DNA of 64,000 nt from Microbacteriaceae bacterium. Lineage in GTDB: Bacteria; Actinomycetota; Actinomycetes; Actinomycetales; Microbacteriaceae. The stretch lies in assembly GCA_027491295.1 (NCBI GenBank), contig JAIXWK010000003.1, forward strand, positions 310,001-374,000. The letters run 5' to 3'. Position 1 is the stretch's first letter. Each line of letters starts with the position of its first letter. Of this stretch, positions 37,296 to 51,658 are shown one piece after another. The position numbers and the translations under genes are program-made. Under the pieces are notes generated by a model. That model was given only the letters and a program-made list of their open reading frames with translations, ran no database searches and was not told the DNA's origin.

Positions 37296-39143
37296 CTACT
37301 GGCCCTTACTTCCCGAGAGAACTAACTCCAGGACACTCAATCCGGTCGCGGAGACTTTGATGGGGATTCCCCAGTCCTGCTGGTGGATATGACACTGTGC
37401 ACCAAGCTCTGACTCATCGCAGGATGCGCCTTTGGCAGCAATATGCAAAACGCCTTCAGTAATTGCTGGATTCAGCACCACTGGTCTAGAAAGCTCAGTT
37501 GAATTCCCAGCACCCTCAAGAAGCAATTCCTTAGGGGTAGAACTGACGACCAGGAAGGTCGATGGTCCATAGCGATCGTCAAGCTTTTGCCCAGGAGGTG
37601 CACTGAAAGTGACATCGATGGTCAGATTCCCGGCTAAAACATCCAGGGCTGGTCTTGTGGTTCGCATCGCTGCACCTTGGACCAGTGCTCCAGGCTCGAT
37701 CGCCAACAGTGTGATTCGGTTGGCAGCGGTTTCCACGATTGCAAGCTTTGGCCCGGTTGCGGTTTCTACAAGCTCCAAATCGCTCGGCTCCGAGAGGTCG
37801 CGGGCAATTGTTGTGACTTGGTTTGTGGCGGGTGAATACTTTCTAATGGCACGGTTGTAGGTGTCTGCAATTAGCAGGTTGCCATCTGGGAGTTCTAAAA
37901 CGCCCAGTGGATGCTGAAGTAATGCCTGGCCCGCAGGGCCATCAACGTGACCAAAGTCAAATAGTCCCTTGCCAATCTGAGATGAGATCTTGCCACCTTC
38001 GGCCGCTCGAAGGGCAGAAGTCTCAGCGTCGATGATCCAAATCTTGCCGGGATTGATCTTAGACTGAACCAGAGCAGAGGGCTGGGCAAACCAAGCCTGC
38101 GCAAGATCTCCGTCAACTAGCCCTTCATTGGTTGTGCCAGCAAAGATGCCGAGAGTCTTATTTTGTAGATCGTATTTCCAGATCCTGTGCTCTCCAGCCA
38201 TCGCAATAAGCAAATAGCCATCAAGTAGTTCTATGTCCCAAGGGGTTGAAATGTTTACCTCTAAAGCTGGACCAGAGGTTGCATCAGCCTGCATCCACTG
38301 CTCACCGGTGCCTGCGATTGTGAAAACCGTCTTGGTTTCTAGGTTGATTGCTCGAATCAGATGATTGGCGGTATCGGCAACCAAAAGGTGCGCACCAACT
38401 TGGCTAGCAAGTTGAGAATCTAAAAACACTGCCCCGTATGGCTCAGCGAAGCTGGCAGATTCAAAGCTGCCATCGTCCGACCCTCGTAAGCCTTGACCAA
38501 TAGTGATTGTTGGTTTTGTCAGGTTCGCGGCGGTGAGGCCAACTAGGTTGTGAGCCCCGCTATTGCTGACCAGGAGCTCAGCTCCCCCAAGAAATTGCTG
38601 GTAATTCGCTGGAACCGCCACGATCTTTCCCGGTTGTTTCAAGGCAAGTGAACTTGGGGCTGGGGCCTTATAAATACCAGCACCGCGAGTCAATTCTCCG
38701 GTGGCTTCAAATTCCGGAACTAATTTGTCTAGCAGAGCCTCGATGGCGTGCGCGTGACCCTCACCAGAAAAGGTTGCGGTTATTTCGCCAGTTGGATCAA
38801 CCAGCACCAGGGTTGGCCAGGCTCGAACTCCGTAAGCCTGCCATGTCGTCATGTTTGGGTCATTTAGAACCGGGTGGTGGATCTCGTGCCTATCGATAGC
38901 CGCTGCGACAGATTCAGGAAGTTTCTCGTGCTCAAACTTCGGTGAGTGAACCCCGACAACCGTAAGCACGTCTTTGAATTTCTCTTCAATCGGTCGAAGC
39001 TCAGCGAGCACGTGATGACAGTTAACGCAGCAGAGTGTCCAAAAATCAAGCAGTAGAAAGCGACCTTTGAAATCAGTGATGCTGATTGCGCGGTTTTCGG
39101 TTCCAAACCAGGTGTCACCGATTAGCTCAGGAGCTCTAGTCAC
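37296..39143 (-). CDS. Thioredoxin-domain / NHL-repeat protein
   Basis: A 615-residue two-domain protein. The N-terminal thioredoxin-like domain (about 1-150) has the redox motif Cys39-Val-Asn-Cys42 in FWTLCCVNCHHVL. An NHL-repeat beta-propeller follows (about 180-500, with repeats such as LLVADTANHLIRAI and LLIADTYNRAIRKY), then a C-terminal beta domain containing a CDESELGAQCH pair of Cys. The architecture resembles NHLRC2. It has no signal peptide. GTG start overlaps the CoA-binding protein stop by 4 nt. It ends the sulfur operon, so a role in thiol redox linked to sulfur metabolism is plausible but unproven. Confidence 0.9.
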   Translation of the reverse strand: MTRAPELIGDTWFGTENRAISITDFKGRFLLLDFWTLCCVNCHHVLAELRPIEEKFKDVLTVVGVHSPKFEHEKLPESVAAAIDRHEIHHPVLNDPNMTTWQAYGVRAWPTLVLVDPTGEITATFSGEGHAHAIEALLDKLVPEFEATGELTRGAGIYKAPAPSSLALKQPGKIVAVPANYQQFLGGAELLVSNSGAHNLVGLTAANLTKPTITIGQGLRGSDDGSFESASFAEPYGAVFLDSQLASQVGAHLLVADTANHLIRAINLETKTVFTIAGTGEQWMQADATSGPALEVNISTPWDIELLDGYLLIAMAGEHRIWKYDLQNKTLGIFAGTTNEGLVDGDLAQAWFAQPSALVQSKINPGKIWIIDAETSALRAAEGGKISSQIGKGLFDFGHVDGPAGQALLQHPLGVLELPDGNLLIADTYNRAIRKYSPATNQVTTIARDLSEPSDLELVETATGPKLAIVETAANRITLLAIEPGALVQGAAMRTTRPALDVLAGNLTIDVTFSAPPGQKLDDRYGPSTFLVVSSTPKELLLEGAGNSTELSRPVVLNPAITEGVLHIAAKGASCDESELGAQCHIHQQDWGIPIKVSATGLSVLELVLSGSKGQ

Positions 39144-39616
39144 TTCAAAGATCTTCTAGAACTAATCACGCCGGTGTTGAAGCCCGCGAGGTGTAATCCG
39201 CCATGGAATCGAGCATGCTCAATCTTGAGGCAGCGATTCATAACTACGTTCAGTCCGGCAGCGGCACCGCGTGCACTTACCTCATCGTTGGAAACTCCCA
39301 GCTGAAGCCAAATGGTCTTTGCACCCACGGCTATTGCTTCGTCCAGAATGCCAGGGGTATCAGATGCTTTTCTGAAGACGTCAACGATGTCTGGCGTCTC
39401 TGGAAGGTCGGCCAGTGAGTTGTAGACCTTTTCGTCAAACAAGGAGTCAATCATTGGGTTGACGTAGTAGACCTTGTAGTACTCGCCGCCTTTTAGGTAG
39501 CTGGCCACGAAATAGCTCGCCCTTGAACGGTTGGAGGAAACTCCAACCATTGCGACCACCTTGGAGGTTTGCAGAATCTCTAGACGCTGTTTGGCAGTTG
39601 GTTCTTGGTAGCTCAT
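39140..39616 (-). CDS. CoA-binding (Rossmann) domain protein, YccU-like
   Basis: A 158-residue single-domain protein. The Rossmann motif AMVGVSSNRSRASYFVASYL is at about residues 22-41, and the segments VYYVNP and IWLQLGV match the YccU/CoA_binding_2 family. It may bind CoA or an acyl-CoA. In many bacteria such genes are beside O-acetylhomoserine sulfhydrylase, as here. Its ATG overlaps the metY stop by 4 nt and its stop overlaps the NHL/thioredoxin gene start by 4 nt, so three proteins are translationally coupled. Function unknown. Confidence 0.9.
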   Translation of the reverse strand: MSYQEPTAKQRLEILQTSKVVAMVGVSSNRSRASYFVASYLKGGEYYKVYYVNPMIDSLFDEKVYNSLADLPETPDIVDVFRKASDTPGILDEAIAVGAKTIWLQLGVSNDEVSARGAAAGLNVVMNRCLKIEHARFHGGLHLAGFNTGVISSRRSLK

Positions 39617-40908
39617 CGAGACCTCCCAGTAGCGGCCTCAAGCGCCTGGTCTAGATCCCAAAGAATGTCTTCGATATCTTCGATTCCTACGCTGATGCGA
39701 ATCAGATCCTCCGGCACTCCAGCCGCTGCCAGCTGGTCAGGTCCCAACTGGCGATACAGGGTTGAGGCTGGGTGAATGATCAGGCTCTTAGCGTCGCCGA
39801 TGTTGGCTAGATGGCTGATCAATTGAACGTTATTGATTAGCTTCTCGCTTGCCTTGCGGCCACCTTCGACTCCGAAGGAGAACACCGCGCCAGGACCTTC
39901 GGGTGCATACTTTTTGGCTAGCTTGTGATCCGGGTGAGACTTGAGGCCCGAGTAAGAAATCCAACTTACGCGCTTATCGGAATCCAGCCACTCGGCAACC
40001 GCCTTGGCGTTTGAGACGTGGTCCTTCATTCGCTGCGGCAGAGTCTCGATTCCCTGAAGCAGCTGGAATGCCGCCATTGGAGATAGTGACGGGCCGATAT
40101 CGCGAAGCTGCTCACTGCGCAGTTTGGTCAGGAATCCAAATTCTCCGAAGTTGCCCCACCATTCCAAATCGCCATAGGCAGCTACCGGCTCGGTCATGAA
40201 TGGGAACTTGCCGTTGTCCCATTGGAAGGTTCCGGCATCAACCACTACGCCGCCGAGGGTTGTTCCATGGCCACCCAAGAACTTGGTTGCAGAGTGAATC
40301 ACAATGTCCGCACCGTGTTCAATTGGTCTTACCAAATATGGGGACGCTGTAGTGGAGTCAACGACCAGTGGGATTCCATTGCGGTGAGCAACTTCTGCCA
40401 GGCCTTCAATATCAGCAATCGCTGTTGAAGGGTTTGCGATTGACTCGGTGAAAATCAGTTTGGTGTTTGGCTTGATTGCGGCTTCAAAATCCTTTGGATT
40501 TGAGGAATCGACAAAGGTGCTTTCAATTCCAAAGCGCTTCAAGGTAACCGTTATCTGTGTCACGGTTCCGCCGTAAAGGCGAGAGGAGCTAACAATGTGA
40601 TCGCCAGCACCGCAAAGGGCTGCGAAGGTTATGAATTCAGCAGACTGCCCGCTTGCGGTCGCGACCGCACCGATGCCTCCTTCAAGGCTTGCAACTCTCT
40701 CTTCAAAGGCTGCAACGGTTGGGTTTCCGATTCGAGAGTAAATGTTGCCGTACTTCTCCAATGCAAAAAGATTGGCGGCATCCTTGGTGTCCTCAAACAC
40801 AAAAGAGGTGGTCTGGTAAATCGGAACGGCTCTGGCTCCGTATACCGGATCTGGCACGCTACCGGCGTGGAGCGCCCTTGTCTTGAACCCGAACTTCTTT
40901 TCTGACAT
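39613..40908 (-). CDS. metY: O-acetylhomoserine sulfhydrylase (O-acetylhomoserine aminocarboxypropyltransferase)
   Basis: A 431-residue Cys/Met-metabolism PLP enzyme. The PLP lysine is Lys209 in SATKFLGGHG. The N-terminal FKTRALHAGSVPDPVYGARAVPIYQ-type motif (segments) and NPTVAAFEERVASLEGG match the long MetY group (about 430 aa). It makes homocysteine from O-acetylhomoserine and sulfide, bypassing cystathionine. It lies 26 nt downstream of ssuC, joining sulfur uptake to methionine synthesis. The Met-rich leader ahead of ssuB would control it. Confidence 0.96.
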   Translation of the reverse strand: MSEKKFGFKTRALHAGSVPDPVYGARAVPIYQTTSFVFEDTKDAANLFALEKYGNIYSRIGNPTVAAFEERVASLEGGIGAVATASGQSAEFITFAALCGAGDHIVSSSRLYGGTVTQITVTLKRFGIESTFVDSSNPKDFEAAIKPNTKLIFTESIANPSTAIADIEGLAEVAHRNGIPLVVDSTTASPYLVRPIEHGADIVIHSATKFLGGHGTTLGGVVVDAGTFQWDNGKFPFMTEPVAAYGDLEWWGNFGEFGFLTKLRSEQLRDIGPSLSPMAAFQLLQGIETLPQRMKDHVSNAKAVAEWLDSDKRVSWISYSGLKSHPDHKLAKKYAPEGPGAVFSFGVEGGRKASEKLINNVQLISHLANIGDAKSLIIHPASTLYRQLGPDQLAAAGVPEDLIRISVGIEDIEDILWDLDQALEAATGRSR

Positions 40909-40934
40909 GGTCTTCTCCTAGGTGTCTTCTGATT

Positions 40935-41741
40935 CTAAATCCAACGCAGTGCGCGTTTTTCAACTGTTGCGATAACGACATCGCTGAGCTTTCCCAAAAG
41001 GGCAAGCAAGATAATCGCCATAAACAAGATGTCGGTTCGGGCAGTGTTCTGACTATCCAGTAGCAAGAACCCAAGGCCCATAGAGCTTGCTATCAGCTCT
41101 GCGGCAACTAGGAATAACCACGCTTGGGCAAGTCCCAAGCGAAGACCCGAGAAGATAACCGGTGATGCCGCAGGAAGCAGCACCTTGGTGATCAGCTTCA
41201 CTCCCTTTAGCCCGTAAGTTCTTCCAACCTCAATAAGGTTGCGATCTACCGCGGCCAGTCCTGCGGCAACGGTGGTGAAAACTGGAAAGAAGGCGCCAAT
41301 GGCAACCAGGGTGATTTTGGGCTCTTCGTAGATGCCCATCCAAATAAGTAGTAGTGGAACCCATGCCAAAGATGGCACAGCTCGGACCGCTCCGATAGTT
41401 GGCAACAGCAGTTGACTAACAGTCTTGGATAAACCGACGGCGGAACCCAGTGCGATGCCCAAAACTGCACCGATAGCAAAGCCGGAAAATACGCGCTGGA
41501 TGCTTATCGACAGGTGCTGCCAGAGGGTTCCTCTCTCCACCAGCCCTTGAGCCGCCTGTAAAACTTCTATCGGTGGCGGCAATTGACTGGCAGAGAAAGA
41601 CCCGTTGGTGCTGAGGATCTGCCAAATGACAAGAATCAGAGCCGGCAGCAAAGCACCAATTGCGAGCCTGACCAAATTCTTGCGAACTTTGGCTTGCCGC
41701 TGTTGCTTGGTGTTTTGCTGCTCGACTCTGAATTCTGACAT
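40935..41741 (-). CDS. ssuC: ABC-transporter permease, SsuC-like
   Basis: A 268-residue BPD-type permease with about six helices. The coupling loop has TYGLKGVKLITKVLLPAASP and the C-terminal segment GLGFLLLDSQNTARTDILFM is typical of SsuC/TauC. It starts 3 nt after the ssuA stop. With SsuA and SsuB it should import an organosulfur compound such as an alkanesulfonate. The desulfonating monooxygenase SsuD is not in the window, so the substrate is not certain. Confidence 0.92.
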   Translation of the reverse strand: MSEFRVEQQNTKQQRQAKVRKNLVRLAIGALLPALILVIWQILSTNGSFSASQLPPPIEVLQAAQGLVERGTLWQHLSISIQRVFSGFAIGAVLGIALGSAVGLSKTVSQLLLPTIGAVRAVPSLAWVPLLLIWMGIYEEPKITLVAIGAFFPVFTTVAAGLAAVDRNLIEVGRTYGLKGVKLITKVLLPAASPVIFSGLRLGLAQAWLFLVAAELIASSMGLGFLLLDSQNTARTDILFMAIILLALLGKLSDVVIATVEKRALRWI

Positions 41742-41744
41742 GGG

Positions 41745-42764
41745 TTAGTTGCCCAACTTCTTGGCAATCGAGTCGTCCAAGATCGTTGCAAGTGCCTCAT
41801 CTGCCGCTGCTTGCGACTTGATTGCACCTTCAGCCACTAGAACCTTTGAGATGGTTGTCCAAACTGCCAACTGGGTAGCACCAGGCACGATCGAGACATC
41901 GATGTTGGTTCGCTCTAGAAGTACTGTGCTAGCAACGTCCTCATCTAGCTGTGCGTCTCTGGCAAGGATTGCCACAGCTGCATCTGGGTTAGCAAGAATC
42001 CACTGACGAGCCTTTTCGTACTGCTTGAGGACAACCTCAACAAGCTCTGGCTTCTCGGCTAGGAACTTGTCTGTCGCACTCAAAACACCCCAGGAGACAA
42101 ATGCAGGGTTGTTGTAAATAATCTTGCTTCCAGCAGATTTCTCGCTGGTAGCGGTTAGTGGGTCAAGACCTGCCCAAGCATCAACATCGCCTGACTCCAG
42201 CGCCTTTTGTCCATCGGCGTGAATTAGGTTCACGATCTCAACGTCCGCTGCAGAAAGTCCGACCTCGTTTAGAGCCTGCAAAAGGTGGAAGTAAGGGTCA
42301 GTTCCGGACGCCGCTGCAATCTTCTTGCCCTTGAGCTCTAGAACAGAGGTGATGTCGCTGTCCTTGCCGACAACGATTGACGCCCAGTTCGGCTGCGAGA
42401 AAACGCCAACGGTAGTTAGCGCTACTCCATTTGCACGAGCAGAAAGTGCAGCCGCTCCAGCTGAGGATCCAATGTTGATTGCCTCAGCGTTTAGGTTTTC
42501 GATTGCCTTGCTAGATCCTGCAGAAAGAACCCACTCGACGGTGTAGCCATCGGCAGCGAGTTCCTCTTCCAACCAGCCCTGATCCTTAACAACAAGGCTT
42601 AGCGGATTCCAATAGGCGTAATCCAGCACTAGAACCTTGGAGTCGGTTGCGGCTGATTCGGTTGGTGCTGATTCGCCTGCTGCGCAACCAGCTAGCGCGA
42701 GAAGCGCGATAGATGCTGCGGCAACAGATTTAACCAGTCGGTTTAGTTTCTTTGAGGATGACAT
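41745..42764 (-). CDS. ssuA: Substrate-binding lipoprotein, SsuA-like
   Basis: A 339-residue exported lipoprotein. Signal sequence with SSSKKLNR basic region, hydrophobic core, and lipobox LAGC with Cys27. The mature part starts LVLDYAYWNPLSLVVKDQGWLEE and contains the INIGSSAGAAAL and SQPNWASIVV segments found in aliphatic-sulfonate binding proteins. It delivers the ligand to SsuC. Starts 23 nt after ssuB. Its sequence differs clearly from the NMT1-type protein at 25.5 kb, so the two importers probably have different ligands. Confidence 0.92.
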   Translation of the reverse strand: MSSSKKLNRLVKSVAAASIALLALAGCAAGESAPTESAATDSKVLVLDYAYWNPLSLVVKDQGWLEEELAADGYTVEWVLSAGSSKAIENLNAEAINIGSSAGAAALSARANGVALTTVGVFSQPNWASIVVGKDSDITSVLELKGKKIAAASGTDPYFHLLQALNEVGLSAADVEIVNLIHADGQKALESGDVDAWAGLDPLTATSEKSAGSKIIYNNPAFVSWGVLSATDKFLAEKPELVEVVLKQYEKARQWILANPDAAVAILARDAQLDEDVASTVLLERTNIDVSIVPGATQLAVWTTISKVLVAEGAIKSQAAADEALATILDDSIAKKLGN

Positions 42765-42787
42765 TTTGTTTTGTTCTCTTTCTTGAT

Positions 42788-43567
42788 TTACGGATGTATT
42801 CCGAACTTGGACAACAGTTCAGTTCTAAGTGGTGCGAGTCCTGGGTGAGAGCGGTCTCTCGGTCTTGGGTGATTGACTTTCACAATTTCATCGATGCCCC
42901 GGCCTCGCTCAGCCAAAACCACAATTCGGTCGGCCAAGTGAAGTGCTTCATCGATATCGTGAGTCACCAAAACCACTGTTGCTCCGGTCGCGCCAGCGAC
43001 CTCGAGCAATAGATCTTGCATCAACAGTCTGGTTAGAGCATCAAGCGCCGCGAAAGGCTCGTCCAGCAACAAAACTCCCGGGTGACCAGCAAGCCCTCTT
43101 GCAAGGGCAGTTCGCTGAGCCATTCCACCGGAGACTTGTCTCGGGATGTGCTTTTCAAATCCGGCTAATCCAACGCTGGCCAAAAGTTCGTGAATTTCGC
43201 GCTCACTTCTTTTACCTCTAGCTCCAATTGCGACATTGTCCTTCAAGCTAAGCCAAGGCAAAAGCCGTGGCTCCTGAAAAACAAAACCGCAACGTGGGTC
43301 AACACCCGATACCTGCTGTCCGTCAACTTCTACCTGCCCTTCGCTTGGGCTATCAAGCCCTGCGATTAGGCGAAGAAGAGTTGACTTACCGCAGCCGGAA
43401 GGTCCAAGAAGAACCAGCACCTCGCCGGCATGGATGTTTAGGTTGATGTCTCTTAGGACATCAACTCTTTTGACACCTTTACCGAAGTGCTTATTGACCT
43501 CAGTGATAGTCACAGAGGCAGGAGACACTTTCGGAGCGTCCGGTTGGATTGATTCAGCTATAGCCAA
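42788..43567 (-). CDS. ssuB: ABC-transporter ATPase, SsuB-like
   Basis: A 259-residue ATPase. Walker A is GPSGCGKST, the signature VSGGMAQRT, and Walker [13 protein letters not shown]; the switch His is in LVTHDIDEA. First gene of the sulfur operon. Start is TTG at 43567 with AAGGTG 7 nt upstream; no other start is available near the leader. The first 20 residues are unconserved. A leader with a Met-rich short ORF lies between its likely promoter and its ribosome-binding site, so expression probably responds to methionine. Confidence 0.93.
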   Translation of the reverse strand: MAIAESIQPDAPKVSPASVTITEVNKHFGKGVKRVDVLRDINLNIHAGEVLVLLGPSGCGKSTLLRLIAGLDSPSEGQVEVDGQQVSGVDPRCGFVFQEPRLLPWLSLKDNVAIGARGKRSEREIHELLASVGLAGFEKHIPRQVSGGMAQRTALARGLAGHPGVLLLDEPFAALDALTRLLMQDLLLEVAGATGATVVLVTHDIDEALHLADRIVVLAERGRGIDEIVKVNHPRPRDRSHPGLAPLRTELLSKFGIHP

Positions 43568-43608
43568 TTAGGTTCACCTTTTGATGGCGATTGAGTCGAT
43601 GGGATTTT

Positions 43609-43662
43609 GCGAGGCTTCACCCTCGCGGCTTAGTTCACCGTTAGAAACGTTAGAAGCTAAGC
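43609..43662 (-). promoter_or_regulatory. Candidate attenuator hairpins between the Met-rich ORF and ssuB
   Basis: On the minus-strand RNA a first stem GCTTAG/CTAAGC (43662-43657, 43633-43628) begins 3 nt after the leader ORF stop. A second stem GCGAGG-GUGAAG-CCUCGC (43626-43609) follows at once. A third possible hairpin, GAGC-GAAT-GCTC, lies in the last four leader codons. No U-run follows stem 2, so a classical terminator is not evident, and the exact switch is unresolved. Confidence 0.5.
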
Positions 43663-43664
43663 GT

Positions 43665-43742
43665 TTAGAGCATTCGCTCCATGGTCATCATTGACATACC
43701 CATAGCAAAGCCAGCGGAGTGCGAGAATCGCATTGCTGGCAT
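43665..43742 (-). CDS. Met-rich 25-residue leader peptide of the ssu-metY operon
   Basis: The ORF runs from ATG at 43742 to TAA at 43667-43665. It has a near-perfect Shine-Dalgarno, AAGGAG at 43755-43750, 7 nt from the ATG. Met occurs at residues 1, 4, 14, 16, 18, 19, 21 and 24, i.e. 8 of 25, with six in the last twelve. It lies about 100 nt ahead of ssuB in the leader of a sulfur-uptake and homocysteine-synthesis operon. Met clustering near the end of a short ORF followed by hairpins is the pattern of an attenuation peptide that senses Met-tRNA. That function is inferred; the ORF, ribosome-binding site and Met content are directly visible. Confidence 0.75.
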   Translation of the reverse strand: MPAMRFSHSAGFAMGMSMMTMERML

Positions 43743-43776
43743 TTCTAATCTCCTTGAGATCAAAGGTTCATCCAAG

Positions 43777-43805
43777 ACAATAGTGGAAAATTTTGCGAGC
43801 TGCAA
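43777..43805 (-). promoter_or_regulatory. Candidate promoter of the ssu-metY operon
   Basis: TTGCAG (43805-43800) and TATTGT (43782-43777) are separated by 17 nt on the minus strand, acceptable sigma-70-type -35 and -10 elements. Transcription would start near 43770, leaving about 28 nt before the Met-rich leader ATG. Weak consensus. Confidence 0.4.
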
Positions 43806-43815
43806 ACGGCTTGCA
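43792..43815. promoter_or_regulatory. Two overlapping palindromes at the ssu-metY promoter
   Basis: TTTGC-GAGCT-GCAAA (43792-43806) and TGCAA-ACGGC-TTGCA (43801-43815) overlap and cover the candidate -35 element. Both have 5-bp arms and 5-bp spacers, so they may bind the same dimeric repressor at adjacent sites. The factor is unknown. Confidence 0.45.
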
Positions 43816-43864
43816 CCAGTGTTACGTATTTAGTCAAACTGAATTTCCTATAAACCTTTTTGAT

Positions 43865-44674
43865 TTACTTTTCGTTCTCTGTTCTGGAAAGCCGCTGTGA
43901 AACGTAGACGGGAATCAGAGACAAAAGAATCACTACCGTGGCAACTACGTTCACAACCGATGCCTGATTAGGTCTTGCCATCTCCTTTAGTATCCAAAGC
44001 GGCAAGGTGTCGACCCCCGGTGGTGCGGTGAAAATGGTCACCACAACCTCATCAAAACTAAGCGCAAATGCCAACAGAGCGCCAGCGGCGAAAGCGGTTC
44101 TAAACTGCGGGAAGGTCACTAGGCGGAAGGTTCCCCAGAGACCCTCACCCAGGTCCATAGAGGCTTCTTGGAGGGATGGATTCATTCGCTTCAGGCGCGC
44201 AAACACGTTATTGAAAACCATCACAATACAAAAAGTTGCGTGAGCGACGATCATTCCAAAATACCCAAGCTGGATGCCTGCTGGGGTGAGGAAGTTTGAG
44301 TAGGTATTGCTAAAGGCAACGCCGGTAACAACACCGGGGAGGGCAATTGGCAATACCACTAAGAGATTTACCGTCCCCTTGCCAAAAAACTCATACTTGC
44401 TCAGCGCGAATGCGACCAGAGAGCCAAGCACCATGGCGATTAGCATCGCCCCGAAAGCGACAATCGCCGAGTTCAATAACGCCGCCCGGATCTCTTCTGA
44501 TTCATAGGCGACGACCCACCATTTGAGTGAGAACTCCTGAATCGGCCATGCCGAAATTTGACGTTCATTGAATGCGTTCAAGATCAAAACCAATAGCGGT
44601 GCATACATGAAAATCAGCACTATTGAAACTATTGCCATGAGCGACCAGCGTGAACCTCTGGAGAATCTAAGCAT
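43865..44674 (-). CDS. potC: Spermidine/putrescine ABC-transporter permease PotC-like
   Basis: A 269-residue BPD permease with six helices. The N-terminal segment IFMYAPLLVLILNAFNE and the loop EASMDLGEGLWGTFRLVTFP are typical of PotC. The later LSFDEVVVTIFTAPPGV stretch is a PotC hallmark. The ATG at 44674, 4 nt after the potB stop with GAGAGG upstream, is preferred over an in-frame ATG at 44713 inside potB. It is the last gene of the potABDC-like set (order potA, potD, potB, potC). Confidence 0.94.
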   Translation of the reverse strand: MLRFSRGSRWSLMAIVSIVLIFMYAPLLVLILNAFNERQISAWPIQEFSLKWWVVAYESEEIRAALLNSAIVAFGAMLIAMVLGSLVAFALSKYEFFGKGTVNLLVVLPIALPGVVTGVAFSNTYSNFLTPAGIQLGYFGMIVAHATFCIVMVFNNVFARLKRMNPSLQEASMDLGEGLWGTFRLVTFPQFRTAFAAGALLAFALSFDEVVVTIFTAPPGVDTLPLWILKEMARPNQASVVNVVATVVILLSLIPVYVSQRLSRTENEK

Positions 44675-44678
44675 CTTG

Positions 44679-45557
44679 CTACATCCTCTCCAGCGAGCCG
44701 GTTCGCCTTGCAATCACAAGGTACATAACGACAAATGCAATCGGGACCATCGAGAAGGCGGCCGCCACCGGCGGGTTCAAGTTGATATTCGAGGCGATGA
44801 TGGAGCCAATCATCTGCGTGGATCCGCCGACGAACTTGGCTGCCAGGTAATCACCCAAGCTAAGCGAGAAGGTGAATACGCTGCCGGCAATGATTGCGGG
44901 CGTGATCAAAGGTAAAACCATGCGGAAGACCGTGGGCCAGCCCTTGGCCCCAAGGTCCGCTGATGCGTCAAAGAGATTGTGCGGCAGCTGCCTGATCGCG
45001 GTGAAAACAGGTAGCGCCATGTAGGGAAACCATAGGTAAGCCAGTGTCAGCACGGTCACCGGTATTCCAAAGCCTGGTCCAGTTATGCCAAACGGCTCCA
45101 TCAGCCAGTTGAACAAACCTTGCTCGGTGAAAGTCAGTCGCATGGCCAAAAGTTTCACCAAATAGCCAGCCCAGAGCGGGAGTGTGATTGCAACCGCCAA
45201 TAGGTTTCTAACCCAGGGTCTTGCAATCTTGGCCATAAAGATTCCAAGTGGAATAGCGAACAAAATGCAAACCAACGTCACCGCTAGCGCAATTGCCAGC
45301 GTCCTAATAGCAGTCGAAAAATATGCGGGGACGGTGAAAATGTTTATGAAGTTATCCAGGGTGAAACCCGGAATCACCTTCGAGGTGAATGGGTCGATGA
45401 ACCACAGTGCTGTAACCAGCAGAAGAGCCAGCGAGATTATGTAAACGCCGATAAGCCAGGTCATTGGCAGGGCTAAAAGTGCGATCAGCCTGACGTTTGG
45501 TCTTTTGTGCAGGTAGGTGGAAACAGGGCGCTGCGGGGCCTTTTGAATTGCGCTCAA
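44679..45557 (-). CDS. potB: Spermidine/putrescine ABC-transporter permease PotB-like
   Basis: A 292-residue BPD permease with six helices. The coupling loop reads LFDASADLGAKGWPTVFRMVLPL (segments), and the preceding LPVFTAIRQLP is family-typical. It pairs with PotC as a heterodimeric channel. Start TTG at 45557 with AGGTGAG upstream. It begins 83 nt after potD, a gap whose pyrimidine/GC-rich inverted stretch GCCGGGTGGGG-AATA-CCCCCACCCGGC is a strong hairpin (see separate entry). Confidence 0.93.
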   Translation of the reverse strand: MSAIQKAPQRPVSTYLHKRPNVRLIALLALPMTWLIGVYIISLALLLVTALWFIDPFTSKVIPGFTLDNFINIFTVPAYFSTAIRTLAIALAVTLVCILFAIPLGIFMAKIARPWVRNLLAVAITLPLWAGYLVKLLAMRLTFTEQGLFNWLMEPFGITGPGFGIPVTVLTLAYLWFPYMALPVFTAIRQLPHNLFDASADLGAKGWPTVFRMVLPLITPAIIAGSVFTFSLSLGDYLAAKFVGGSTQMIGSIIASNINLNPPVAAAFSMVPIAFVVMYLVIARRTGSLERM

Positions 45558-45600
45558 TTTCTCACCTCTTAATTCAGTTCTTGTCTAGAAGATTGGTTTT

Positions 45601-45627
45601 GCCGGGTGGGGAATACCCCCCACCCGG
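45601..45627 (-). repeat. Strong GC-rich hairpin between potD and potB
   Basis: GCCGGGTGGGG (45601-45611) and CCCCCACCCGGC (45616-45627) are near-perfect inverted arms around AATA, giving an 11-bp stem. On the minus-strand RNA it lies 14 nt after the potD stop and before potB. A poly-A (GCAAAAC) rather than a U-run flanks it. Such hairpins after a binding-protein gene commonly protect its mRNA from 3' decay, so PotD can exceed the membrane subunits. Confidence 0.65.
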
Positions 45628-45640
45628 CAAAGCGTTGGCG

Positions 45641-46801
45641 CTATCCCTTAACGGTTACCCACGCATTAGTCCAGTCTTGGAAACTGGTACACGTGACTTC
45701 GGTTCGACCGTCAACACACTCCTCAATTGGAGTGGTCCAAGGCCATACCTGGTCCCAGAACGCCTCGTCCTCTGCTGCGAACTGGTCACAGTGAGCCTGA
45801 GTGTCTGCATCGGTTGCACAGAAGGCAATGTTCGCAGGAGCCATACCAAAGTTCATGGCGATTGCTCCGTTGACGCTTGCCTGGCTGGTGTAGTCGATCC
45901 ATGCGTAAGCACAGTTCGAGTTAGGTGTGGTTGAGGAGATCAACCAGGTGTCATACCAACCGGTGGATCCTTCGACAGGCAGGGTGGTCTTGAGGTTGTC
46001 CTGAGCTGCGAACTTCTTCAAGATTTCCCAGCTGGTGCCAACAACAGTGTTGCCACCTACGAAGGAAGTGATCTGAGCCACTGGGTCTGACCAGTACTCG
46101 CCGATGATGGCGTTCTGCTGCTTTAGCAGATCAACCGCGGCGGCAAGCTGAGTCTCGTCCAATGCATATGGGTTCTTGATCTCAAGCTCAGGCTTGTGGT
46201 ACATCAAGTACACGGCTGCGTCAGCAATGTAAATAGGTGCGTCATAAGCGGTGATCTTGCCTGCATATGGGCTGTCGCTCTCCCAGACCACGTCCCAGCT
46301 CTCTGGAGCTGAGCCGGTCACGGTCTCGTTGTACTGCAATAGGTTTGCACCACGGCCAATTGGAACACCGTAAGGCTTGCCGTTTACAACGTCGTAGATC
46401 TGACCCTTCATACCCTCAGCAATTTCATCGCTGAAGTTAGGGATTAGTTCCATGTTCAATGGCTGAACGTCTCCACCGACGATTAGGCGAAGTGCCGCAT
46501 CACCCGAGGCAGAGACGAGGTCGTACTCGCCAGTGCGCATCAGGGTAACCATTTCATCGCTGGTTCCGGCAACGCGGGAATTCACGACACAACCAGTCTC
46601 AGCTGTGAATGGGTCAACCCACTTTGGGTCCACAAAGCCAGACCAGTTAACAATGTTCAGTTCACCCTCAAAGGCACCAAGTTCAGTCTTCATTGGCACA
46701 TCCGGAACCGTAAGGGTCAGTTCGCCTGTCGCTGCACAACCTGACAGCGCAAGTGCGCTAGCTGCTAGTAGCGCAGGAAAAGCTAGTTTGCTTCTTCTCA
46801 T
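45641..46801 (-). CDS. potD: Spermidine/putrescine-binding lipoprotein PotD-like
   Basis: A 386-residue exported lipoprotein. The signal is MRRSK plus a hydrophobic core and lipobox LSGC with Cys22. The mature protein contains ELNIVNWSGFVDPKWVDPF, and TAETGCVVN follows, the PotD/F fold pattern. It captures polyamines outside the membrane. The ATG at 46801 (with GAGAGGAAG upstream) is chosen; earlier in-frame starts lie inside potA. Several Cys in the C-terminal 60 residues (ATDADTQAHCDQ, EECVDGRTEVTC) may form a disulfide. Confidence 0.93.
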   Translation of the reverse strand: MRRSKLAFPALLAASALALSGCAATGELTLTVPDVPMKTELGAFEGELNIVNWSGFVDPKWVDPFTAETGCVVNSRVAGTSDEMVTLMRTGEYDLVSASGDAALRLIVGGDVQPLNMELIPNFSDEIAEGMKGQIYDVVNGKPYGVPIGRGANLLQYNETVTGSAPESWDVVWESDSPYAGKITAYDAPIYIADAAVYLMYHKPELEIKNPYALDETQLAAAVDLLKQQNAIIGEYWSDPVAQITSFVGGNTVVGTSWEILKKFAAQDNLKTTLPVEGSTGWYDTWLISSTTPNSNCAYAWIDYTSQASVNGAIAMNFGMAPANIAFCATDADTQAHCDQFAAEDEAFWDQVWPWTTPIEECVDGRTEVTCTSFQDWTNAWVTVKG

Positions 46802-46811
46802 TTGCTTCCTC

Positions 46812-47891
46812 TCATTTATGGTTTGGAATCTTGGCCACATGTTCCTTTCGGAATGAGGCCAATACCCTGTCGCCGGATTCAAGACGAATGTCTTGTCCTG
46901 GTAACTCTTCATTCAGCCTGGTTGCGATCAGGCGCAAACCAGATTCGGATTCCAATACATAGAGCGTGTTGGCACCTGTGTAAGCCACATCTGTAATCAT
47001 TGCGATTACGCCATGCTCGCCGGAGGCGAGTTGAGATTTTTCACTGGAAAGTTTGATTCGCTCAGGCCTGATGTTGAACATTTCTTCTGACCCGAACAAG
47101 CTCTTAGCGCTTGCGCCTGAGATCAGGTTTGAAACGCCCAAGAAGCTCGCCACAAATGCCGAGCTTGGGCTCTCGTAAACCTCGCGTGGTGCGCCAATTT
47201 GCTCTATTTTGCCGGCATTAAAAACGGCAATGCGGTCGCTCATGCGCATTGCTTCTTCTTGGTCGTGGGTAACAAAAATGAAGGTTATGCCGGCCTCGCG
47301 CTGGATTCTCTTCAGCTCCACCTGCATCTCTTCGCGAAGCTGCTTATCTAGAGCTCCAAGTGGCTCATCCAGCAGCAGCACCTTTGGTCGAAGTACCAGC
47401 GCACGAGCCAGCGCGATTCTCTGCCGCTGCCCTCCGGAAAGTTGGTGCGGTAAGCGATCAGCGAGGTGGGTTAGCTTGACAGACTCAATCGCCTCCGAAG
47501 CCAATTTGGCGCATTCGATTTTTGGAATCTTTCGTGCTCTGAGGCCATACTCGACGTTCTGCTGAATCGTCATATGTGGAAATAGCGCGTAGTCCTGGAA
47601 AACGGTATTCACATCTCTATCAAACGGTGCCAGCTCAGTAACGTCAGAGCCTTCCAGAATGACCTGTCCGTCGGTAGCCGTTTCAAAACCGGCAATGATT
47701 CTCAGAACTGTGGTTTTACCGGACCCAGATGGTCCAAGCATTGAAAAGAATTCACCATGCGGGATATCAAGATTTAGATTTTCTACCGCAATGACATTGC
47801 CGAAGCTCTTGTTTAGGTTTTTTAGGCTAACGGCGTAGCCGGATGTATTTTGCGAAACTTCTCGCTTGCCTGTGGCGGAGCTAGTGGTCAA
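46812..47891 (-). CDS. potA: Spermidine/putrescine ABC-transporter ATPase PotA-like
   Basis: A 359-residue ATPase with the PotA layout: nucleotide-binding domain with GPSGSGKTT (Walker A), LSGGQRQRI (signature) and VLLLDEPLGALD (Walker B), then a C-terminal TOBE domain (NIRPERIKLSSEKS). Energises PotB/PotC. Start TTG at 47891 with GGGTGA upstream. It is the first gene of the operon; potD begins 10 nt after its stop. It is divergent from putA across a 220-bp gap. Confidence 0.95.
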   Translation of the reverse strand: MTTSSATGKREVSQNTSGYAVSLKNLNKSFGNVIAVENLNLDIPHGEFFSMLGPSGSGKTTVLRIIAGFETATDGQVILEGSDVTELAPFDRDVNTVFQDYALFPHMTIQQNVEYGLRARKIPKIECAKLASEAIESVKLTHLADRLPHQLSGGQRQRIALARALVLRPKVLLLDEPLGALDKQLREEMQVELKRIQREAGITFIFVTHDQEEAMRMSDRIAVFNAGKIEQIGAPREVYESPSSAFVASFLGVSNLISGASAKSLFGSEEMFNIRPERIKLSSEKSQLASGEHGVIAMITDVAYTGANTLYVLESESGLRLIATRLNEELPGQDIRLESGDRVLASFRKEHVAKIPNHK

Positions 47892-47991
47892 GGTATCACC
47901 CAGTCAGTGTCGAACGGCAGTGTCCGAATCAGTAAAGAGTGTATCTGGAGACGCTATTTTGCTCTCTGGATAGTGGCGCTCCAAGGTATCA
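47889..47991. repeat. Direct repeats in the potA/putA divergent region
   Basis: CAAGGTATCA occurs at 47889-47898 and again at 47982-47991, 93 bp apart, with an imperfect dyad GTAAA-GGT-TTTAC at 47997-48009 beside the second copy. The gap should hold both promoters; I see no convincing -35/-10 pair. The repeats may be binding sites for a shared regulator. Confidence 0.3.
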
Positions 47992-48111
47992 ATTTTGTAA
48001 AGGTTTTACCGAGGGACGAATCGACCCGCCTGCTCAGCTTCAATTGGGCACCGATCGCGGGTGAGATTGTTAGAGTTGTCGTTGCAAACCATTCTTCTCA
48101 CAAGGGGACCA

Positions 48112-51100
48112 ATGTCGCTTTCCACAACTCAGATTCCCGCCATTCAAGGCCGAGAAGAACTGATCGAGGCGGCTATTGCCCTAACTCAAAACTGGATTGA
48201 AGAGGCAGCAAAGCTGCCAACTCCGCAGGCATCCAAGCGGCTAGCGGGACTGCTGCAAGATGCAAACGGTCTTGAATTTGCGGTTGGTTTCGTTGATGGC
48301 GTGATTCGCCCGGAAGATAAAAAGGTTGCGGCTCGCAACCTAAACCAGCTTCGCAAGCTAACCCCTAAGTTTTTACCCTTCGCACTGCGTTTTCTTATTG
48401 GCGTAGGAGCGGTATTCGCTCCGCTGTTCCCTCAAATAGTTGTTCCAATCGCTCGCAAAGTGCTCAGGAAAATGGTGAGCCACCTGGTAATCGACGCATC
48501 GATGGGAAAGCTAGGTCCCGCACTTCGACGCATCAAAGGAACTGGCGCAGCCCTCAACATCAACCTGCTCGGCGAAGCCGTGCTTGGAGATCTTGAGGCC
48601 AAGCGCAAACTCAATAAAACGGCAGAGCTTCTGAGCCGCAAGGATATTGACTACATCTCTCTAAAGGTTTCAGCAACCACTGCCCCACACTCCAAGTGGG
48701 CTTTCGATGAAAACGTCACCGAGGTCGTTGAGCGTCTTACCCCGCTCTACGAACTGGCAATGCGAGATGGTGCCAACAAGTTCATTAACTTGGACATGGA
48801 GGAATACCACGACCTAGATCTAACCATCGAGGTCTTCAAGCGCATTTTGTCCAAGCCTCAGTTCAAGTCGCTGTCAGCTGGAATCGTTTTGCAGGCTTAT
48901 CTGCCAGATGCGCTGAGAGCGATGATCGACCTCCAGCAGTGGGCTGCTCTCAGGGTCCTAGCTGGCGGTGCCTCAATCAAGGTTCGCGTCGTAAAGGGCG
49001 CGAATCTGCCAATGGAGCAGGTCGATGCCGAAATGCATGGCTGGCCGCTGGCAACGGTTGAGTCAAAGGCTGCTGCCGATGCCAACTACAAGCGAGTGCT
49101 GAACTATGCATTGACTTCCGATCGCATTCGGAATGTTCGAATCGGTGTTGCCGGGCACAACCTCTTTGACCTTGCCTTTGCCTGGACACTGTCTCAGCAG
49201 CGCGGCATTGAAAACGGCATGGATGTCGAGATGCTGCTCGGCATGGCCCCAGCTCAGGCTGAGGTCGTTCGTAAAAGTGTCGGTTCACTGGTTCTCTACA
49301 CCCCGGTTGTTCACCCGCAAGAGTTTGATGTTGCAATCGCCTATCTGATCCGCCGTCTCGAAGAGGGCGCGAGCAAAGAAAACTTCCTCTCCAATGCATT
49401 CCAGCTGAGTAAGCAAGAGTCGTTCGAGATTGAGAAGAATCGCTTTGTAGCTTCCATGTCGATGCTGGATGACCAGGTTCCTATTCCAAATCGTCTGCAG
49501 GATCGTCGCAATGATTCGGCAGTGATTCCAGCCACTGGATTCGAGAATGCACCAGACACTGACCCGGCTCTTGCTGGTAACAGAGTCTGGGCATACGAGA
49601 TCATCAAGCGCAGTGGCTCTTCGCGACTTGGAAAGTCTGAGATTGAAAAGCAGTTCATCGAGACCGAGACCGCACTAAACGAAGCGATTGCTACCGCAGA
49701 ACAAGCTGGTATTGAGTGGGGCAAACGTGACCCCTACGAGAGAGCGACCCTCCTACACCAAATTGGTGTGTTGCTAGAGCGCAACCGAGGCGACCTTATT
49801 GAGGTTGCGATGAGCGAGACCGGTAAGGGGTTTGACCAGGCCGATGCCGAGGTATCAGAGGCCATCGACTTTGCTCACTACTACGGCGAGCAGGCCAAGA
49901 AACTTGCAGAGATAGATGGTGCCGTCGCAAAGCCAAGAAGAGTAACTCTGGTCACCCCGCCTTGGAATTTTCCGATCGCCATCCCTGCCGGAAGCGCATT
50001 GGCTGCAATTGCCGCAGGATCAGCCGTGGTATTCAAACCAGCAGGTCAAGCTGCCAGATGCGGAGCTGTTGTTGCATCGCTTATGAATGAGGTTTTGCCA
50101 GCTGGAGTTTTGGTGCCGATTCAACTTCAGGAGCGAGCACTTGGTTCGCAGTTGATTGCTCACCCCGATGTTGATCAGGTGATCCTGACCGGTGGCTTTG
50201 AAACCGCTCAGCTATTCCGCAAGTTCAACCCGAACCTTAGATTGTTCGCAGAAACCAGCGGCAAGAACGCAATTATTGTTACTCCAAATGCCGACCTTGA
50301 TCTTGCGGTCAAAGACATTGCCTACTCGGCATTTGGTCACGCAGGACAAAAGTGTTCTGCAGCTTCACTAGTGATTTTGGTTGGCTCGGTTGCCAAATCA
50401 AAGCGCTTTATGCGCCAGCTAGAAGATGCAGTCAAGTCGATTCACGTGGCTCACCCACAAGACCCTATGGCCCAAATGGGACCCGTTATCGAAGCGCCGC
50501 AGGGCAAGCTACTTAAGGGACTTACCAGTCTGGAACGCGGCGAAAGCTGGTTATTAGAGCCAAAGAAGTTAGATGACTCAGGCAAGCTTTGGTCTCCTGG
50601 AATTCGCGTAGGTGTTCGCCCCGGCTCCAAGTCACACAAAACCGAATACTTTGGACCGATGCTCTCGGTTATGACCTCGCGCAATCTAGAAGATGCGATT
50701 GAAATTCAGAATGCCGTTGACTACGGCCTAACCGCAGGCCTGCACTCACTAGATCCAATTGAAATCAACCAGTGGATTTCAAAGGTTGAGGCAGGAAACC
50801 TCTACGTAAACCGCACCATCACCGGTGCGATTGTGCAGCGCCAGCCATTTGGTGGCTGGAAGCGCAGCTCGATCGGTCCAACCGCTAAGGCTGGTGGCCC
50901 AAACTACCTGGCAACCCTGACCGACTTCGGGTCCAAGCCAGCGATCTTGCGCGAGGTAATCAAGAACAAGCAGCTGCTGCAGATTTTGGCCTTGGCCGCT
51001 GAGAGTGAGTTGACCGATTCTGAGGTTGAGTCCCTTACCCGCGGCTTGCAAAACGATATCGCCGTAAGGCGCGATTACTTCCCGCAGCGCACTGACCCAA

Positions 51101-51543
51101 GTGGTCTAGCAAGCGAAATCAACGTGCTTCGCTATGTTCCGGCAGGCTGCGAGCTACGAATCAGCGAGTCAGCGTCTCGCTACGACTCCTGGCGCTCAAT
51201 TGCAACCATGGCAGCCCTCGGCAATGGAACAGTTTCAACCTTTGAAATCCCGCAGCGCTTGCTCAAGCCACTGAGGAAGCTTGGTGTGAGCGTAAAGATC
51301 GAATCGGAATCCCAGTGGCTTGCCAGAATTGGCGGCTCGCGGAGTCGCGTTCGCTGGATAGGCTCTACAACTCAGGTTGCCGCCGATTCTGCATTGGCAA
51401 GTTGCGAGATTGCGATTTACGACCAAAAACCGACCGAATCCGGCTATCTCGAGCTGCTCCCCTACTTCAAAGAGCAGGCAGTTGCAATCACCGCCCATCG
51501 CTTCGGTAATCCAGTTAGGTTCATAAAGGCTTTGGAGTTCTAG
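48112..51543 (+). CDS. putA: Bifunctional proline dehydrogenase / delta-1-pyrroline-5-carboxylate dehydrogenase
   Basis: A 1143-residue fused enzyme that oxidises proline to glutamate in two steps. The PRODH barrel (about 100-440) has DYISLKVSA, FINLDMEEY and a GMDVEMLLGMAP segment. The aldehyde dehydrogenase domain (about 480-960) has TPPWNFP, Glu714 in FAETSGKN and the catalytic Cys748 in GQKCSA. The last 170 residues form an extra C-terminal domain. No N-terminal DNA-binding domain is present, so it is not a self-repressor like the E. coli protein. The ATG at 48112 follows AAGGGG by 5 nt. Confidence 0.96.
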   Translation: MSLSTTQIPAIQGREELIEAAIALTQNWIEEAAKLPTPQASKRLAGLLQDANGLEFAVGFVDGVIRPEDKKVAARNLNQLRKLTPKFLPFALRFLIGVGAVFAPLFPQIVVPIARKVLRKMVSHLVIDASMGKLGPALRRIKGTGAALNINLLGEAVLGDLEAKRKLNKTAELLSRKDIDYISLKVSATTAPHSKWAFDENVTEVVERLTPLYELAMRDGANKFINLDMEEYHDLDLTIEVFKRILSKPQFKSLSAGIVLQAYLPDALRAMIDLQQWAALRVLAGGASIKVRVVKGANLPMEQVDAEMHGWPLATVESKAAADANYKRVLNYALTSDRIRNVRIGVAGHNLFDLAFAWTLSQQRGIENGMDVEMLLGMAPAQAEVVRKSVGSLVLYTPVVHPQEFDVAIAYLIRRLEEGASKENFLSNAFQLSKQESFEIEKNRFVASMSMLDDQVPIPNRLQDRRNDSAVIPATGFENAPDTDPALAGNRVWAYEIIKRSGSSRLGKSEIEKQFIETETALNEAIATAEQAGIEWGKRDPYERATLLHQIGVLLERNRGDLIEVAMSETGKGFDQADAEVSEAIDFAHYYGEQAKKLAEIDGAVAKPRRVTLVTPPWNFPIAIPAGSALAAIAAGSAVVFKPAGQAARCGAVVASLMNEVLPAGVLVPIQLQERALGSQLIAHPDVDQVILTGGFETAQLFRKFNPNLRLFAETSGKNAIIVTPNADLDLAVKDIAYSAFGHAGQKCSAASLVILVGSVAKSKRFMRQLEDAVKSIHVAHPQDPMAQMGPVIEAPQGKLLKGLTSLERGESWLLEPKKLDDSGKLWSPGIRVGVRPGSKSHKTEYFGPMLSVMTSRNLEDAIEIQNAVDYGLTAGLHSLDPIEINQWISKVEAGNLYVNRTITGAIVQRQPFGGWKRSSIGPTAKAGGPNYLATLTDFGSKPAILREVIKNKQLLQILALAAESELTDSEVESLTRGLQNDIAVRRDYFPQRTDPSGLASEINVLRYVPAGCELRISESASRYDSWRSIATMAALGNGTVSTFEIPQRLLKPLRKLGVSVKIESESQWLARIGGSRSRVRWIGSTTQVAADSALASCEIAIYDQKPTESGYLELLPYFKEQAVAITAHRFGNPVRFIKALEF

Positions 51544-51658
51544 AAGCTCAACTTCTCCGCCCCGTTTGTTATCCCCAAGCTCAGAAAATAATGGCTTTTT
51601 GGGAGTATTCTTGCTATTTGGCTGTTTGAACTAGTCACATAAACATTCGAGGTTGAAG

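Follow-up and report, generated by a model that had tools for sequence, protein, structure and literature searches.

Regulation of sulfur genes by methionine is generally attributed to SAM riboswitches or to repressors. The locus described here raises the question of whether methionine supply could also be read by a ribosome translating a short, methionine-rich frame ahead of a sulfonate-uptake/homocysteine operon. We addressed this question in the genome of a Microbacteriaceae bacterium (G000), in a 64,000-nt stretch of DNA that we call the window, and at orthologous loci in other genomes.

The reading frame ahead of ssuB and its operon

A first-pass annotation of the window had described a 25-codon frame preceded by AAGGAG and gave no strand for it. 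The frame lies on the minus strand, with its start ATG at 43742-43740 and its stop TAA at 43667-43665, and both its length and the 7 nt separating AAGGAG from the ATG are borne out (Table 1). The methionine count was also right: eight of the 25 residues are Met, seven of them internal and six within the last 12. The leader precedes ssuB as claimed, with 97 nt, not 98, between its stop and the TTG start of ssuB. A possible promoter upstream was read from the sequence by eye; a promoter scan of 43500-43900 on the minus strand returned no site and did not list this candidate, and in G010 and G021 its -35 element is kept and its -10 element is variable. Further upstream, an ABC transporter set (two permeases, a binding protein and an ATPase; 43865-47891, minus strand), which we take to be spermidine/putrescine-like by general resemblance only, stops 122 nt short of the leader ATG.

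Table 1. Coordinates of the leader, of the operon and of the associated signals in the window, and of riboswitches at two other loci.
Feature	Coordinates	Strand	Basis and remarks
Leader ORF, 25 codons, 8 Met codons	43665..43742	minus	encodes MPAMRFSHSAGFAMGMSMMTMERML; same-place leaders in relatives
Leader Shine-Dalgarno AAGGAG	43750..43755	minus	7 nt upstream of ATG
Hairpin of 9 bp enclosing leader Shine-Dalgarno	43744..43764	minus	folded in G000 and G010, G021 by sequence; clade G000/G010/G021 only
Possible promoter TTGCAG - 17 nt - TATTGT	43777..43805	minus	by-eye reading of sequence
P0, small hairpin over last leader codons and stop	43666..43681	minus	folding; one pair broken in G014
P1 hairpin, 2 nt after leader stop (pairing from the third nt on)	43628..43662	minus	folding
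P3 hairpin GCGAGG/CCTCGC, without U-run	43609..43626	minus	also in G014 and G017, with a single broken pair in one of the three sequences
C-rich, G-poor 45 nt ahead of ssuB with 14 C and 6 G, candidate Rho-loading stretch	43568..43612	minus	composition
Probable ssuB Shine-Dalgarno AAAAGGTG, ahead of TTG start	43575..43582	minus	sequence
ssuB, ABC transporter ATPase, first operon gene	42788..43567	minus	best NCBIfam match and context
ssuA, SsuA-family binding protein	41745..42764	minus	TIGR01728, 211 bits (cutoff 163.5)
ssuC, permease	40935..41741	minus	best NCBIfam match and context
metY, O-acetylhomoserine (OAH) sulfhydrylase	39613..40908	minus	TIGR01326, 599 bits (cutoff 495)
CoA-binding domain protein	39140..39616	minus	PF13380
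Thioredoxin-like/NHL-repeat protein, last gene	37296..39143	minus	family search
SAM riboswitches RF00162, directly upstream of ssuBAC	L007 2833-2935; L008 797-906		Chloroflexi MAGs; 78 and 84 bits

The gene order given previously, ssuB-ssuA-ssuC-metY-CoA-binding-NHL/thioredoxin, holds, with ssuA and metY above the cutoffs of TIGR01728 and TIGR01326. SsuB and SsuC fall below the cutoffs of their own NCBIfam families and are named from best match and context; thus, the sulfonate substrate is putative. The genome has two OAH-sulfhydrylase-like genes in all (both matching at E <= 1e-120), metY being one of them.

The methionine content was judged against a set of 1,697 short ORFs (12-60 codons, each behind an SD-like sequence). 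The set covers 364 kb of this genome, roughly 25% of it, made up of the 64-kb window and fifteen 20-kb stretches. Internal Met is maximal in the window leader (7/24), which is the sole ORF with at least six; only one other reaches 20% (5/21), and this one runs antisense within a 480-aa ORF. At the mean internal Met content of these short ORFs (1.8%), the binomial probability of at least 7/24 is 2e-7, uncorrected for the 1,697 ORFs. Among the 1,074 ORFs of at most 31 aa there are 26 cases, the window leader included, in which some residue is present in at least 7 copies and makes up at least 28% (Ser 12, Leu 4, Pro 4, and six others once each). Because such enrichment occurs for other residues, the match between Met and an operon of the Met pathway carries part of the weight.

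Leaders at orthologous loci and the likely signal

SsuB orthologs of at least 67% identity define nine distinct loci, which comprise six of the 22 genomes of the genus, G087 and G222 from 398 genomes of the family, and L005 from the species collection (L001, L002, L003, L004 and L006 were counted as G021, G010, G087, G014 and G019, respectively). Six first-look candidates were scored per genome in the SsuB searches of the 398 family and 396 order genomes, so that orthologs may be missed; at this depth, and at E <= 1e-85, the order genomes yielded SsuB in the window's own genome alone. Similarly, among 67 genomes of the genus of G222, SsuB was found at E <= 1e-85 in G222 alone.

A leader preceded by a Shine-Dalgarno sequence stands ahead of ssuB at seven of the nine loci, in two genera, and its length across the relatives is 14-25 aa. 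The leaders of G000 and G021 are identical (MPAMRFSHSAGFAMGMSMMTMERML); the others are MPALRFSHSAGFAMGMSMMTMERML in G010, MSRSRILPFVVSLSGTLLGAMARMR in G014 (ending GAMARMR), MSDLRILHSVVSKVGMRMVSMERML in G017 (ending GMRMVSMERML), MTIIHAPFMLNRMR in G019 (ending FMLNRMR) and, in another genus, the 17-aa MFTMQMRMMSMMQESIG of G222, which shows the pattern MxMxMMxMM and has the same six genes downstream. Start codon and Shine-Dalgarno sequence are kept in these leaders, with an open frame and a Shine-Dalgarno in all six genus genomes that have SsuB; the latter reads AAAGGA in G014 and G017, AAAGGGAGG in G019 and AAAGGGA in G222, 4-7 nt from the ATG. An NCBIfam scan of three leaders assigned them to no family, and the leaders of 14 and 17 aa are too short to scan.

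Besides the window, ssuB-A-C-metY-CoA-binding was found in G010, G014, G017, G019 and G222. The last gene, encoding the thioredoxin-like/NHL protein, is present in G010, G014, G019 and G222 and was not found in G017, and the G021 contig is too short to judge. The upstream transporter genes of the window were not found beside the operon in G014, G017, G019 and G222. The operon, rather than the upstream gene, is the constant partner of the leader. Two loci have no leader before ssuB: L005, in which ssuB-A-C-metY is present (metY at 88% identity), and G087 (L003/L135), whose operon is also without metY.

Internal Met amounts to 7/24 in G000, 2/24 in G014, 4/24 in G017, 2/13 in G019 and 6/16 in G222. 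Pooled over these five distinct leaders, this is 21/101 where about 2 would be expected (P about 2e-16 at 1.8%), a probability that overstates the case because the five share ancestry. Taken singly, P is 0.0009 for G017, 0.02 for G019 and 0.07 (not significant) for G014; the latter two leaders are only modestly Met-rich, and both have their internal Met codons within the last six codons. The excess of end-product codons that marks an attenuator is therefore present in the pooled leaders and weak in G014. The proposal that homologous leaders should keep the frame and its Met codons is thus mainly upheld, by seven of the nine loci and by the pooled count, with the leaderless L005 and G087 and the modest Met content of G014 and G019 counting against it.

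All six leaders of the genus finish with CGA-ATG-C(T/G)(C/A)-stop, though that of G019 is otherwise unrelated and that of G014 is Met-poor, and the G222 leader ends in QESIG, without the Arg-Met-X-stop end. A search of the 22 genus genomes for SD...ATG...CGN-ATG-CNN-stop, limited to two Shine-Dalgarno words and set length ranges, returned eight matches; six are in frame, all at ssuB leaders, and two were judged out of frame by reading.

Comparison of G000 with its closest species, G021 and G010, gives 0 and 1 changes in the 78 nt of the leader, 1 and 1 in the 97 nt after it, and 19 and 24 in 777 nt of ssuB (about 2 expected per 78), vs 22 and 23 in the 122 nt of intergenic DNA upstream of the leader, where 5 and 6 of the changes sit in the 61 nt adjoining the leader. 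Substitutions are thus much scarcer in the leader than in intergenic DNA, and their rate in the leader is similar to, and not clearly below, that in ssuB. Since its silent sites are conserved too, the RNA as well as the peptide may be constrained. When G000, G014 and G017 are aligned, there are no gaps inside the 25 codons and gaps in both flanks.

Evidence on the signal comes from outside the family. Two Chloroflexi loci (L007 and L008) have ssuB-A-C in the same order, with SsuB 56% identical, and carry RF00162 just before ssuB. A SAM riboswitch ahead of orthologous ssuBAC genes supports Met/SAM as the natural signal of the operon. The riboswitches share with the leader its place ahead of orthologous, identically ordered transporter genes; they differ in being an RNA aptamer for SAM, with no match in the window or at the G017, G019 and G222 loci. 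The 36 loci scanned contained no riboswitch above the gathering score besides L007 and L008, the Rfam scan of 40000-52000 of the window gave no match up to E = 1, and the window together with L131, L132, L133, L135 and L005 gave only tRNAs above the gathering score. SAM-IV (RF00634) scored above cutoff in five of the 22 genus genomes, elsewhere than at the ssu operon, and was not found in G000. These matches are at L151 (1501-1615), L152 (327-440) and L153 (1501-1615) and, at contig ends, in L154 and L155; a related small protein of 131-140 aa (containing, e.g., CGLYKPGHKTHYVQ), not a recognized Met gene, follows in L151-L153, and L151 has a helicase-like ORF near SAM-IV.

Met-rich frames were also sought elsewhere in the family. 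The pattern M-x-M-(M/V)-x-M matched in 215 of the 398 family genomes, far over the reversed control, as can be anticipated for a pattern rich in ATG when frames resemble coding sequence. Three of the 30 matches examined as loci are ssuB leaders (L119-L121). The other 27 look like chance matches: most lie in open frames of at least 40 codons, and the few short ones (e.g., L103 and L117) are only presumed to be of this kind. In the 1.5-kb flanks of 30 metY loci of the family, the only candidates were two GTG frames, neither of them on the metY strand, which is a weak negative because 1.5 kb would miss even the window's own leader.

RNA structure and regulatory output

The two stems placed after the stop codon by the first-pass annotation were recovered by folding, the first pairing from the third nucleotide. 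The leader transcript of the window folds better than its shuffles (z -3.83), and from the stop to ssuB the z values are -3.15 in G000, -3.69 in G010, -1.25 in G014, -2.15 in G017, -2.71 in G019 and -1.14 in G222, which is unremarkable for G014 and G222. A hairpin 0-2 nt past the stop is predicted in five distinct lineages, namely G000, G014, G017, G019 and G222, with 48, 16, 9, 0 and 49 per 1000 shuffles, respectively, matching it; that of G019 has a near-P1 shape with unrelated sequence. Elsewhere in this genome, 20% of a further 1,690 short ORFs have a hairpin at least as stable as -10 kcal/mol directly after the stop. An RNA model built from three sequences (R1) detected five ssuB sites at 91-106 bits in the 22 genus genomes, with everything else at 18.8 bits or less, and has no counterpart at the G019 or G222 loci, though both have a leader ORF. 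Given that strong hairpins are common after other short ORFs and that R1 is blank at these two loci, structure after the leader stop is only likely. Covarying changes, which had been suggested as a check on the stems, were seen at one of 26 predicted pairs (in P0), among three sequences, and these are too few to prove structure. The hairpin enclosing the leader Shine-Dalgarno is absent from G014 and G017, where folding predicts that the Shine-Dalgarno pairs elsewhere within the leader. Within P1, GGTGAACTAAGCC resembles the ssuB Shine-Dalgarno region; the idea of a decoy Shine-Dalgarno was dropped because G017 has no matching one.

The first-pass annotation had likened the leader to those of trp, his and leu. 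Attenuation of that terminator/antiterminator type is not supported, since a scan of 43500-43900 for intrinsic terminators found no terminator-like site in the window and P1 and P3 lack a U-run; the scan covered the window alone, and the post-leader sequences of the relatives were read and folded only. What stands of the earlier proposal is a conserved leader ORF with Met codons, tied to the operon in two genera; the classical attenuator lacks support. Sequestration of the ssuB Shine-Dalgarno switched by ribosome position was also modeled, and five of six leaders showed no switch. With a ribosome masked at the internal Met codons or the stop, mean accessibility of the ssuB Shine-Dalgarno differed from that of the free RNA by no more than about 0.1 in G000, G010, G014, G017 and G222, and accessibility of the start codon shifted without a consistent rise. 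For G019, placing the ribosome on the final Met codon or on the stop is modeled to raise access from 0.29 to 0.65 at the Shine-Dalgarno and from 0.08 to 0.42 at the start.

The composition ahead of ssuB may point to another output. C minus G over the 45 nt before the gene is 8 in G000, 9 in G010, 7 in G014, 8 in G017, 3 in G019 and 13 in G222, compared with a mean of 0.6 (sd 4.7) before 117 genes with a gap of at least 80 nt, 9% of which reach 7. Taking 7 as the mark, the C-rich and G-poor RNA looked for in Rho attenuators is thus present in G000, G014, G017 and G222 of the five distinct lineages. Such a stretch would fit Rho, which has been proposed for Cys leaders of Actinobacteria that have no terminator, and Rho would then act at the ssuB leader. 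The output is most likely Rho-dependent or translational.

Published systems offer partial parallels. Seliverstov et al. (2005; PMC1262725) predicted actinobacterial leader peptides ahead of Trp, Cys and branched-chain amino acid genes and proposed Rho for Cys leaders without terminators, a proposal called weak there; for Met operons, they report no conserved RNA regulatory structures upstream in the Actinobacteria studied. The Cys leaders before mycobacterial cys operons resemble the ssuB leader in being short ORFs with end-product codons near the stop and, as described, no conserved terminator, and differ in responding to cysteine rather than methionine; their output has been given as Rho-dependent (Seliverstov et al., 2005) or translational (Canestrari et al., 2020, as cited in PMC13236596 and PMC9094748). 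For the E. coli toiL-topAI uORF (PMC12121999), translational repression is coupled to Rho-dependent termination, and a ribosome stalled on the uORF is proposed to alter RNA structure, as could be the case here; by contrast, toiL senses antibiotics, and Rho acts within the downstream ORF. Attenuation has been proposed for alkanesulfonate/sulfonate transporter operons as well (PMC2965389), with predicted Rho-independent terminators, in bacilli in one case, and with no Met leader described.

The closest parallel is metL, MSTTSDRTPATEATTTPGARCMCRRMCAF, predicted before metNIQ in the reannotation of Streptomyces lividans TK24 (PMC8079986), whose entry on it gives no clear terminator. Like the ssuB leader, metL is found in an actinobacterium, here ahead of genes for Met transport, and has Met codons close to the stop (ending RCMCRRMCAF) and hairpins that form no typical Rho-independent terminator in that account. 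It differs in its leaderless start, in its operon and in having only two internal Met plus Cys; it is itself a prediction, and the likeness is by description. The open-access literature searched contained no Met leader peptide besides metL. A Met-sensing leader is thus unusual within that literature, as first claimed, and metL is a predicted precedent. New here are the conservation across genera, the far higher Met content and an operon other than that of metL.

A probable ribosomal methionine sensor and the alternatives to it

A cis-acting Met-codon leader for the sulfonate-uptake/homocysteine operon is well supported by the sequence comparisons, and we consider it probable that the leader peptide couples ssuBAC-metY to methionine supply via the ribosome. 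From the arrangement of the locus we infer a transcript start, translation of the leader, stalling, the direction of control, and a Rho-dependent or translational output, as follows. The leader would be the first frame translated on the mRNA. Under a shortage of Met-tRNA, the ribosome would slow at Met codons near the leader end, which for the window's genus means the penultimate Met together with whatever cluster precedes it, and would cover or hold open the hairpin 0-2 nt past the stop. With the hairpin open, RNA polymerase and/or new ribosomes could proceed into ssuB. With Met plentiful, translation would end quickly at the stop, the hairpins would form and the bare C-rich stretch before ssuB would be exposed, shutting the operon off, most likely by Rho-dependent termination and otherwise by blocked ssuB initiation. 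Initiator tRNA falls under Met starvation too, and this should dampen the response of a Met leader.

The same frames could be read in a different manner, in that the nascent peptide with its Arg-Met-(Leu/Arg)-stop end might stall at termination on free Met, SAM or homocysteine, as TnaC does on tryptophan, so that the Met codons would be part of a peptide signal and not codon counters. The end shared by all six genus leaders, even those of G019 and G014, favors such arrest, as does a hairpin 0-2 nt past the stop that a terminating ribosome could melt; yet G222 is very Met-rich and ends QESIG, and the CGA-ATG may instead reflect RNA pairing in P0. We regard arrest as unlikely. Somewhat less likely again is that the structured post-leader RNA is the regulator, as a new riboswitch-like element, with the ORF secondary. 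P1-P3 are as conserved as the leader, loops included, and folding beats shuffles both for the leader transcript (z -3.8) and for the G000 post-leader RNA; on the other hand, R1 is missing exactly where G019 and G222 retain leader ORFs, Rfam gave no match, and only the one pair in 26 changed on both sides.

A functional Met-rich micropeptide, for instance a metal-binding one, that neighbors ssuB by chance seems very improbable: its MxMxMM-like runs resemble copper-binding motifs, but sequence, length and Met number differ widely among relatives, the position is fixed before one operon, and silent sites are equally conserved between the closest species. A chance ORF within a conserved 5' UTR is the least credible reading, for although the whole 175 nt before ssuB are conserved between the closest species, non-coding part included, and two orthologous loci have no leader, it sits poorly with the Met statistics, with a distinct Met-rich leader in another genus, and with a frame open behind a Shine-Dalgarno in all six genus genomes with SsuB.

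Returning to the leader peptide that couples the operon to methionine through the ribosome, its fullest form can be offered only tentatively: a Met-specific ribosomal sensor with a conserved Arg-Met-(Leu/Arg)-stop end that replaces the SAM riboswitch at an orthologous operon for sulfur uptake and acts at translation termination beside the hairpin that directly follows the stop codon, with Rho as output. The finding raises the question of how a Met leader works when Met starvation lowers initiator tRNA. More broadly, the same transporter genes appear under a SAM riboswitch in Chloroflexi or under a Met-codon leader in small-genome Microbacteriaceae, so that the exchange of an RNA aptamer and a ribosomal sensor becomes testable at one orthologous site.
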